A DNA stretch of 61,238 bases from Fibrobacter succinogenes (GTDB lineage Bacteria > Fibrobacterota > Fibrobacteria > Fibrobacterales > Fibrobacteraceae), in NCBI RefSeq assembly GCF_902779965.1, contig NZ_CACZDK010000035.1, positions 1 through 61,238 of the forward strand, given 5' to 3'. Positions within the stretch are counted from its first letter, which is position 1. Each line of letters starts with the position of its first letter. Positions 37,101 through 60,156 of this stretch are shown in pieces. A model generated the notes under the pieces. It was not told the origin of the DNA and ran no database searches. It saw nothing but the letters and a program-made list of their open reading frames with translations. Made by a program: the position numbers and the translations under genes.

Positions 37101-37210
37101 TATGAGGGCGGTCGCCTACGGCAACCTTTGAGGTATGAGCTCGGCACGAAGTGCCTTTGGGGTTTAACCCTCAAAGCGAAACGACCTCAAAGCACCAACG
37201 GTGCGACCCC
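37101..37210. repeat. Large imperfect palindrome with ACCTCAAAG arms
   Basis: The left arm (37101-37136, inverse orientation) and right arm (about 37184-37210) both carry ACCTCAAAG...GCGACC. The left arm shares 26 of about 28 bases with the 5' coding part of bioD (59447-59476). It lies between the parvulin gene stop and its terminator. Confidence 0.7.
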
Positions 37211-37217
37211 ATTACCC

Positions 37218-37246
37218 AAAGGATGCTGAACGGCATCCTCTTTTGT
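37218..37246 (+). terminator. Terminator after the parvulin gene
   Basis: AGGATGC-tgaacg-GCATCCT followed by CTTTTG. Confidence 0.75.
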
Positions 37247-37284
37247 TCTGGAAGATGAAAAAAATTTGAAAAATGGAGATGTAA

Positions 37285-57035: not shown

Positions 57036-57863
57036 ATGGATTACTACAGTTTAAAAATGCGAGCCTCGCAGCATGTTGGCGAAGGCGAAAACTCCCATGA
57101 ACAGCATATTTCCGGTGCTGAACGTATTGTTGGTCGTGATTCCGTGGAAGCTGTGTGTGCGGCAATGGTGCGCCGTGCGATGAATCATTCCAAAGGCGAT
57201 CCGGATTTTATCAATGTGAAAATTGAAAAGGTTCACGAAAGCGACATCCAGATTTTGAAATCTTTACCGGTGACACGAATTGATGTGGAAACGTGGCAGG
57301 AAGGGTTGGAGAAAGCGTTTAGTCTTGTAAGTAAAGCTGTAAATGATGGATTGCTTCGCGACGATGTCGCTCGCAATGACGTTGAAGCCGAATGTAGCAG
57401 AAATGCTTGCAACGATAAAATCGCAGATTTTGCCCAAAAGCTTCCTGAACTTTTGCGGGCGACGTTCCCGATGCGCGGGGCGATGCTTTACGATATTGCA
57501 ACGGGCGAGCGCCTGGAACCAGACCACGAACGCGGAGTTCGTGCGACGTATATGGATGCGCTTCATTCGAGCGAAGTCGATGGATGCAAAAACCATTTTA
57601 ACGAAGCGATTGTGCTTGCGACCAAGGTGGCAAATGCGCCGGGAATGGTGGCGGAATTTTGCGTTTCGGACGACCCGAATTACATCACGGGCTATGTGGC
57701 GAGCAAGGAACTGGGTTATGTGCGCATCATGAAGATGAAGGAAATGGGCGATGAAAACGGAGGCCGCATTTTCTTGTTTGATTCCCGCAAGGCTTCGGCT
57801 GAAGAATGCATCGAGTACTTGCAGAAGAAAAAAGTGCTCGTGGATGTAGTTGGCAGAACTTAG
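57036..57863 (+). CDS. bioW: 6-carboxyhexanoate--CoA ligase (pimeloyl-CoA synthetase) with repeat-derived insert
   Basis: The 275-residue enzyme joins pimelate and CoA with ATP at the start of the biotin pathway. BioW motifs are MRASQHVGEGENSHEQHISGAERIV at the N-terminus (given here only in part: MRASQHVGEG), FPMRGAMLYDI, RGVRATYMD and YVRIMKMKEMGDENGGRIF. Residues about 105-116 (GLLRDDVARNDV) are encoded by a 33-base copy of a dispersed spacer repeat (57349-57381), in frame. The protein is somewhat longer than typical BioW (about 230-260). bioF follows by 105 bases filled with the same kind of repeats. Confidence 0.92.
   Translation: MDYYSLKMRASQHVGEGENSHEQHISGAERIVGRDSVEAVCAAMVRRAMNHSKGDPDFINVKIEKVHESDIQILKSLPVTRIDVETWQEGLEKAFSLVSKAVNDGLLRDDVARNDVEAECSRNACNDKIADFAQKLPELLRATFPMRGAMLYDIATGERLEPDHERGVRATYMDALHSSEVDGCKNHFNEAIVLATKVANAPGMVAEFCVSDDPNYITGYVASKELGYVRIMKMKEMGDENGGRIFLFDSRKASAEECIEYLQKKKVLVDVVGRT
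57349..57381 (+). repeat. GTCAT...ATC palindromic element inside the bioW coding region
   Basis: It starts GATTGCTTCGCGACGATG and ends CGCTCGCAATGACG. It is identical at 30 of 33 positions to the non-coding copy at 59364-59396. Confidence 0.85.
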
Positions 57864-57968: not shown

Positions 57969-59216
57969 ATGAACGAACGAATTTTAGACCTTTTCACGAA
58001 AAATGCGCTTGAATCGGCGCGTGCGAACAATACGTACCGCACGTTGCGTCACATCTCGTCGCCAGAAGCATCGCATGTGACGATTGCGGGCAAGGATACG
58101 GTTTTGCTCGCGTCGAATTCTTACTTGGATTTGGCAAACGTTCCTGAACTCAAGCAGGCGATGGCGGATGCGGTCCTTGAATGGGGTACGGGGAGCGGTG
58201 GCGCTCGCCTCACGACCGGCAACAAGACTCCCCACGATGAACTTGAAGAATTTATTGCAAAGTTCAAAGGCGAAGAGGCGGCTATCGCGTTCAATACGGG
58301 CTACATGGCAAACGTGGGTACGATTTCGGCGTTGTGCGGCAAGAACGATTTTATTTTCAGCGACGAACTGAATCACGCAAGCATTATCGATGGCATTCGC
58401 CTTTCCCGGGCAAAATGCTTTGTGTACAAGCACAACGACATGGCTGATTTGGAACGTGTAATTGAGACGGCGAAAGCGGAATTCTTTGCACAAAGCGCAT
58501 CGACAAACGCTGTTTTAAGTGATGCGGAAAATGCGAAACAAGTTGCGCATCCCTTCCGCGGGCTCATTGTGACCGATGCCGTTTTCAGCATGGATGGCGA
58601 TTTGGCGAACTTGCCGGAGCTTTTGCGGATTGCGAAAGCGCATGGCGTGTTGCTCATGATTGATGAGGCGCATGCCACGGGCGTCCTTGGGCGCACGGGG
58701 CGCGGACTTGCGGAACATTACAATTGTGCTCATGCCGATGTGACTGTCGGGACTTTGAGCAAGGCCGTGGCCGCCGAAGGCGGCTTTGTCGCCGGTTCCA
58801 AGCAGTTGATTGAATTCTTGAAAAACAAGTCTCGCAGTTTCATTTTCACGACGGCGATGGCCCCTGCGGTGGCTGCTGCGGCTTGTCAGAATTTAAAATT
58901 CATTGATGCGCATCCGGAACGTGTTCAGCAATTGCGTGACAACGTGAAATTCTTTTGCGATACCTTGCGCCTGCACGGGTTACAAGTTCCGCAAACGGAA
59001 TCGGCGATTATTCCCATTGTCATTGGCGATGAAGCGAAGGCATTGCGGATTTCGGAAACGCTCCAGAATGAGGGCGTCTTGATTCCTGCAATCCGTTATC
59101 CGACGGTTGCAAAAGGGCAGGCCCGCTTACGCGCAAGCCTCATGGCAACGCATACAAAAGAAGAACTTCAAACTGCCGCGACAGCAATTGCTCAAATCAT
59201 AAAATCAACGAACTAG
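57969..59216 (+). CDS. bioF: 8-amino-7-oxononanoate synthase
   Basis: The 415-residue PLP enzyme condenses pimeloyl-CoA with L-alanine to KAPA. Motifs: ASNSYLDLANVPEL, TGSGGARLTTGN-like (GSGGARLTTGNKTPHDELE), DELNHASIIDGIRLS, IDEAHATGVLGRTGRG and the PLP Lys in GTLSKAVAAEGGFVAG. A stretch of about 20 residues before GLIVTDAVFSMDGD (SASTNAVLSDAENAKQVAH) is longer than in most BioF. It sits between bioW and bioD. Confidence 0.95.
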   Translation: MNERILDLFTKNALESARANNTYRTLRHISSPEASHVTIAGKDTVLLASNSYLDLANVPELKQAMADAVLEWGTGSGGARLTTGNKTPHDELEEFIAKFKGEEAAIAFNTGYMANVGTISALCGKNDFIFSDELNHASIIDGIRLSRAKCFVYKHNDMADLERVIETAKAEFFAQSASTNAVLSDAENAKQVAHPFRGLIVTDAVFSMDGDLANLPELLRIAKAHGVLLMIDEAHATGVLGRTGRGLAEHYNCAHADVTVGTLSKAVAAEGGFVAGSKQLIEFLKNKSRSFIFTTAMAPAVAAAACQNLKFIDAHPERVQQLRDNVKFFCDTLRLHGLQVPQTESAIIPIVIGDEAKALRISETLQNEGVLIPAIRYPTVAKGQARLRASLMATHTKEELQTAATAIAQIIKSTN

Positions 59217-59238
59217 TATCTCATTTGAAACTTTAATC

Positions 59239-59267
59239 GTCATTCTCGACCGAAGGGAGGGAATCCA
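59239..59267. repeat. GTCAT...ATCC palindromic element between bioF and bioD
   Basis: GTCATTCTCGACC...GGGAATCCA. An inverted relative lies at 59305-59334 (GGTTCCCCTACG...GAGGATGAC). Confidence 0.65.
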
Positions 59268-59363
59268 GTGAAAATCCCGTCGCAAATGTAGAACGAGAAA
59301 TAATGGTTCCCCTACGCTTCGCTTCGAGGATGACAGCTCAGGATGACGATACGTAAATGAATA

Positions 59364-59396
59364 GATTGCTTCGCGATAATATCGCTCGCAATGACG
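59364..59396. repeat. GATTGC...GCAATGACG element before bioD
   Basis: Non-coding twin of the element inside bioW (30 of 33 bases identical), 22 bases before the bioD start. Confidence 0.85.
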
Positions 59397-59418
59397 AATT
59401 ATAATTTAGGATGAAAAA

Positions 59419-60156
59419 ATGATTGATTTTTTATCTAAAGAATCTTCTCAAACCTCAAAGGGAGCCGTAGGCGACCGAGCCCGAACCTCATCGCCTAAAG
59501 GTTATTTCGTTACGGCGACGGGTACGGATGTCGGTAAAACTTTTATCACGGGTCTTTTGGTGAAAAAATGGCGCGATTCTGGCATTGACGCAGGCTATTA
59601 CAAGGCGGCGCTCAGCGGTGCTGAATTCCGTGAGGGCAAGTGGATTGCGGGCGACGCTGATTACGTCAAGCGCATTGCAAATCTCCCAGACACGCAAGAA
59701 CAGCTCGTCAGTTACGTTTACAAAGAGGCTGTTTCGCCCCATTTGGCGGCACGAAAAGAAGGCAATCCCGTTAATCTTTCTAAAGTTCAGGCGGACTTTA
59801 ACGCAGCCTGCTTCCGCCACGAATTCATCTTTGCCGAAGGTAGCGGGGGAATCATTTGCCCCATCCGCTATGATGACCATAAAATTTTCCTCGAAGATAT
59901 CATTAAGACGCTCAAGCTTCCGCTGCTTATCGTAACGACGGCGGCGCTCGGCTCCATCAACGCTTGCGTGCTCACTGTAGAATACGCCCGTAGCCGCGAC
60001 CTAGATATCCGTGGAATTATCGTGAACCGTTACGGCTGTAGTGGCAATTTTGAAATGGAAGATGACAATATCCGCATGATGCAGGACTTGACAGGGCTTG
60101 AAATTCTTGCAAAAGTCAAGGAAGGCGACAGCGATTTTGGCGTAGCGGTATTTTAG
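59419..60156 (+). CDS. bioD: Dethiobiotin synthetase with repeat-derived N-terminal extension
   Basis: The 245-residue enzyme closes the ureido ring of dethiobiotin using ATP and CO2. The P-loop is GYFVTATGTDVGKTF, followed by YYKAALSG (the usual YxKPxxxG) and GSGGIICP. BioD normally begins with the strand before GTDxGKT. Here about 27 extra residues precede it (starting MIDFLSKESSQTSKGAVG), and no ATG, GTG or TTG occurs between 59419 and the P-loop, so the extension must be translated. Bases 59447-59476 of it match a spacer palindrome at 37101-37136. A bidirectional terminator follows. Confidence 0.93.
   Translation: MIDFLSKESSQTSKGAVGDRARTSSPKGYFVTATGTDVGKTFITGLLVKKWRDSGIDAGYYKAALSGAEFREGKWIAGDADYVKRIANLPDTQEQLVSYVYKEAVSPHLAARKEGNPVNLSKVQADFNAACFRHEFIFAEGSGGIICPIRYDDHKIFLEDIIKTLKLPLLIVTTAALGSINACVLTVEYARSRDLDIRGIIVNRYGCSGNFEMEDDNIRMMQDLTGLEILAKVKEGDSDFGVAVF

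Follow-up and report, generated by a model that had tools for sequence, protein, structure and literature searches.

Spacer repeats as a probable source of the N-terminal extension of dethiobiotin synthase in Fibrobacter

The window, the 61,238-nt stretch of Fibrobacter succinogenes DNA analysed here, corresponds to contig C35 in a genome of 4.09 Mb and carries bioF and bioD with a spacer between them (Table 1). The bioD open reading frame, opened by the ATG at 59419, encodes 245 residues, and its product scores 133.7 bits against the dethiobiotin synthase profile TIGR00347, well above the curated cutoff of 83.3. The profile match begins at residue 30, and the alignment to BioD chains of known structure starts at residue 25-27; therefore, about 25 residues are extra. 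The initial annotation had put the extension at about 27 residues. The window BioD departs in this respect from the usual, although not required, BioD N-terminus, which begins directly at the P-loop strand. In an AlphaFold model, residues 1-23 have a pLDDT below 50, and this tail is probably disordered; model confidence is also low there because few alignment rows cover it. As claimed previously, no alternative start follows the ATG: codons 2-28 contain no ATG, GTG, TTG or CTG, the ATT at codon 2 being the only near-start, and translation would begin at 59419. Neither a clear sigma-70 promoter nor a clear terminator was found in the bioF-bioD spacer, the counts being within those expected by chance.

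Table 1. Features of the bioF-bioD junction and of the related parvulin-side repeat (window coordinates)
Feature	Position	Strand	Basis
Parvulin-side copy of the hairpin repeat, folding at -10.9 kcal/mol	37109..37139	-	alignment, folding
bioF, with its 3' end as the left part of the variable junction	57969..59216	+	TIGR00858, 430.9 bits against a cutoff of 426.45
bioF-bioD spacer, mosaic (left as L080, right near-identical to L079)	59217..59418	+	pairwise differences
Second spacer repeat, also within bioW at 57339-57381	59353..59397	+	89% identity, E=2.5e-8
AGGA, Shine-Dalgarno-like, 6 nt 5' of the ATG, outside the repeat	59409..59412	+	sequence
bioD, dethiobiotin synthase with N-terminal extension	59419..60156	+	TIGR00347; PDB BioD chains
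bioD start codon and codons 2-10 (MIDFLSKESS); hairpin repeat only at the last two bases	59419..59448	+	similarity listing
Hairpin repeat copy ACCTCAAAGG-NN-GCCGTAGGCGACC, in the reading frame	59447..59477	+	own-genome and genus pattern searches
Right flank of the repeat, AGCCCGAACCTCA, with words like AGCCCAT/ACCTCAT	59478..59490	+	comparison with L001, L007 and L115 flanks
TCG codon in place of the ancestral ATG	59491..59493	+	alignment with compact alleles and outgroups

Part of the extension is made of a dispersed repeat. Indeed, the bioD segment 59447-59477 is identical to the reverse complement of the parvulin-side copy at 28 of 31 positions (27 of 30 up to 59476). A match of 26 in about 28 positions had been described before, to the left arm of a palindrome; the match holds, but the bioD copy comprises the entire 17-nt hairpin and its ACCTCAAAG flank, which is more than one arm. 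The copy spans codons 11-20 approximately, and the flanking words AGCCCG and ACCTCA span codons 20-25. Thus, of the start region that the repeat was proposed to have supplied, codons 11-25 or so can be credited to it, while the first ten codons, the ATG included, and the AGGA motif lie outside. Among the matches listed, only L079/L174 (98% over 156 nt) shares the MIDFLSKESS-coding stretch; those others that cover the hairpin start near query base 93-103 or later. The hairpin fold is kept by the parvulin copy and lost by the bioD copy. We considered and rejected an action of the hairpin on bioD initiation, since the bioD copy does not form that hairpin and its folding lies within the shuffled range (z -0.96 and -1.23).

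We then carried out the genome search for ACCTCAAAGG-NN-GCCGTAGGCGACC that the initial annotation had proposed. The pattern ACCTCAAAGGNNGCCGTAGGCGACC, with at most three mismatches, has eight matches in the genome and none for the reversed control; in a whole-genome search, a copy on contig C29 was retrieved at E=1.7e-10 and the parvulin copy at E=4.5e-5. Together, these values exclude a chance match. Seven of the eight copies are intergenic, at about 10-55 nt from a gene edge, and only the bioD copy is intragenic; most intergenic copies end about 10-55 nt 5' of a start codon or, in reverse orientation, 3' of a stop, as placed with crude ORF calls and with some orthologous loci among them. The repeat is thus a multi-copy intergenic palindrome, as REP/MITE-type elements are. 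It is present in 24 of 61 Fibrobacter genomes (at most two mismatches), and a near-identical pattern was found in no genome of the family's other genera. No match to the leader and extension was found in the phage or plasmid collection, and such an origin was set aside. In the region 37101-37250 and in the L001, L005 and L008 spacers, we also observed chains composed of CCTCAAAG-(variable small palindrome)-CGACCTCAT, in which constant words alternate with different hairpins, with the left spacer half in inverted orientation.

A second type of repeat is abundant in the intergenic DNA of this genome. In a 461-kb sample of the same genome, the lag-7 signal amounts to 0.74 per kb in intergenic DNA versus 0.12 per kb in coding DNA, and lags of 5, 6, 8 and 9 are at zero in intergenic DNA. 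Cyanobacterial STRR are heptameric tandem repeats, and the 7-nt periodicity found here is likewise specific to intergenic DNA. The arrays are about 30 nt long, with three to five imperfect units each, in either orientation, and are built on words such as ACTTCCT, CTAACCA, AGTTACT, ACTTAGA and ACTGTCT. Arrays of the word TCTCGTC reach about 200 matches per Fibrobacter genome, and the CTAACCA array extends to two sister genera and, in rare cases, to other members of the phylum. No description of these Fibrobacter heptad and spacer repeats was found in the literature searched.

We compared bioD 5' ends across Fibrobacter, as had been suggested, using 55 distinct core sequences of sufficient length obtained from a genus search, further regions and named Fibrobacter genomes. 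A compact start, M(S/N)KGY or similar, placed directly at the domain, is found in 40 of the 55. In most outgroup genera, bioD also starts close to the P-loop, and the compact start, on this comparison of sequences, is the ancestral state. In eleven bioD, an extension of about 20 residues (19 in one), of the MTLKNLSSLVSRLSSKSKGY type, is read from TCTCGTC heptads; its length and frame are kept in all eleven species, with no broken copy and with an ATG in frame at the corresponding position in each. These heptad-type tails have a homologous start (ATGNNNNTCAAAAAT-like), so the type may have had a single origin and then spread. ACCTCA/hairpin-derived extensions number three (the window, L079 and G045). 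That of L079 (isolate RUG12208) equals that of the window with a single, silent base difference (CGA/CGT), and in that of G045, MFEEKLQAQTSEFANGERPHTSKPKGY, the same ACCTCA words enclose another hairpin. A short start, MTNSKPKGY, is found in one further bioD (L095). In the extended alleles, AAA, GAT, TCG or AAG stands in place of the ancestral ATG, and M-S-K-G-Y of the compact alleles corresponds to S-P-K-G-Y in the window. The residues of the extensions differ freely between species.

The alignment bears out that most relatives start at the P-loop domain without this repeat, but attributing the extensions to one palindrome family proves too narrow. Extensions lacking similarity to the hairpin repeat, which had been named beforehand as an outcome that would count against the claim, do exist in eleven species; these, however, are read from another spacer repeat. 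This strengthens the more general claim that spacer repeats supply bioD starts. Few candidates for other genes with TCTCGTC-coded starts appeared in the compared DNA, and several of them have a later alternative start, which suggests that bioD is unusual. A separate observation is a lipoprotein-like ORF on the minus strand of L163, near 1501-1529, whose signal-peptide n-region (LRRETKDERR) comes from the reverse strand of TCTCGTC heptads. We also observed that one Fibrobacter genome has two bioD that are separated by about 29 kb and differ in junction type (G010:C1:140075-140746 and 168997-169656). Length variation of an internal BioD loop was considered as a second repeat insertion and discarded, the loop sequence not being repeat-like.

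The junction between bioF and bioD appears to have a history distinct from that of the genes. Positions 59164-59313 show 0 differences in 150 from L080, and positions 59389-59538 show 2 in 150 from L079, while the gene bodies are 6-8% diverged. By these pairwise comparisons, the junction of the window is mosaic, combining two alleles present in other species, and the change-over lies near a repeated CAGGATGAC word. Mapped on a bioD core tree (a rapid tree from 675 columns in which several forks are weak, built mostly on metagenome assemblies), the extension type requires 15 changes, against a mean of 14.3 after shuffling, and thus carries no phylogenetic signal. Sister pairs, for example L017/L088 and L087/L022, have unlike extension types. 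The distances of bioF and bioD bodies agree (r=0.91), yet close neighbours differ in junction type. We did not retain a tie between junction type and either flank (the bioF or the bioD body), as 90-nt windows gave no clear linkage (z at most 2.3).

Other parts of the biotin genes vary as well. The bioF C-terminus differs between species, and in some of them it is repeat-like and seemingly rewritten by spacer repeats (ITGSFDFAQDDNT in L079, NLVPRT in L105). The window bioW (57036-57863) carries the in-frame insert DGLLRDDVARNDV that resembles the second spacer repeat, and in other species that bioW position is either free of inserts or occupied by different repeat-like ones (ALRQAQGP, SCHPREGG). 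A longer element, GTCATTCTGACC...GAATCCAGT...GGATCC...CAGGATGAC, is seen at 59239-59345 and in L097 and L090, and recurs in the bioF-bioD spacers of several species.

Altogether, we consider it quite probable that the bioF-bioD junction gains spacer repeats by exchange or insertion, and that loss of the original ATG together with use of an upstream ATG turns a repeat into a BioD tail. The junction would be a site at which short dispersed repeats are swapped or inserted, namely ACCTCAAAG-hairpin units, TCTCGTC heptads, CTAACCA heptads and GGATGAC-type palindromes, and this would probably proceed by homologous exchange, both between strains and at the repeats. In most cases, the repeat would come to lie in the untranslated stretch directly 5' of ATG-AGC-AAA-GGT. 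In some lineages, the original ATG would have changed to another codon (TCG in the window; AAA, GAT or AAG elsewhere) and an upstream ATG, that at 59419 in the window, would have taken over. As no stop interrupts the repeat in the frame required, it would be read through and become part of a tail of 15-25 residues, presumably disordered and tolerated on an otherwise ordinary BioD.

Instead of exchange between strains, mobile repeats might insert independently, in a MITE-like manner, at a preferred site. The same repeat types do precede bioD in distant clades (the CTAACCA type in L030, L101 and L105), and heptad arrays lie nearer to gene edges than random placement would give (mean of 34 versus 52 +/- 8.5 nt, 19 arrays). 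Insertion alone does not explain, however, why spacer flanks are 98-100% alike between species whose gene bodies differ by 6-8%, which exchange does, and we regard this alternative as rather unlikely.

It is improbable, in our view, that the extension is untranslated, with initiation at a non-standard codon beside the P-loop and the repeat merely forming a 5' UTR. The ancestral compact form and the usual position of the repeat, just 5' of start codons or just 3' of stops, would fit such an arrangement. Nonetheless, from 59425 to the P-loop strand no codon is ATG, GTG, TTG, CTG, ATT, ATC or ATA; the ATG and the AGGA motif open exactly the frame of the extension, also in L079, whose lone difference is silent; and the matching ATG recurs in frame in all eleven heptad-type species. 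Finally, selection of the extension for a function, for instance in regulating or localising BioD, seems very improbable, for although the heptad-type tails keep their length and frame, their residues vary freely, unrelated tails occur on the same enzyme, most species have none and the predicted model has no structure there; a probably disordered tail of freely varying sequence suggests tolerance rather than function.

Returning to the exchange of spacer repeats at the junction, we tentatively propose a broader possibility, namely that the diverse heptad arrays of about 30 nt and the ACCTCAAAG-hairpin units might be exchangeable cassettes that continually rewrite gene ends throughout the genus, as in one gene cluster with the N-termini of bioD, the C-termini of bioF and an internal loop of bioW, the repeat-coded stretches recombining independently of the gene body. 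If so, the proteins of close relatives would differ by repeat-coded stretches. Start-codon annotation and BioD N-termini are not transferable between Fibrobacter species. Moreover, one site offers a natural series, without tail, with a repeat before the start codon and with a repeat presumably translated, for which close relatives and outgroups are known; the steps from noncoding repeat to protein are thus directly testable.

The nearest known repeats that are read as protein are the Rickettsia palindromic elements (RPE; Ogata 2000, 2002, reviewed in PMC10969869). As with RPE, a dispersed palindromic repeat lies in frame within a housekeeping protein gene. RPE, however, are of about 150 bp (we applied a range of about 100-150 bp), encode a conserved peptide and have many copies inside genes, whereas the Fibrobacter unit is of about 25-45 nt, similar copies are mostly intergenic and only one of the eight hairpin copies in the genome is intragenic. 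In Fibrobacter, the tail is also N-terminal, through what would be a relocation of the start codon, and a single site hosts several repeat families in alternation. The enterobacterial RU-1, RU-2 and RU-3 (Delihas 2007, PMC2759123) are small intergenic repeats with open frames, some within annotated genes; they are MITE-like elements of 103-168 bp, in contrast to the short heptad and hairpin words of Fibrobacter and its junction mosaic between species. Heptameric tandem repeats enriched in intergenic DNA are described in Xanthomonas and Nostoc (PMC4692102); Fibrobacter differs by its many heptad words, its arrays of about 30 nt, their combination with hairpins and the use of TCTCGTC to code protein starts. 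By analogy, Fibrobacter bioD would work like an RPE fusion, the differences being the size of the repeat, the proposed start-codon relocation and the alternation of repeat families at one site.
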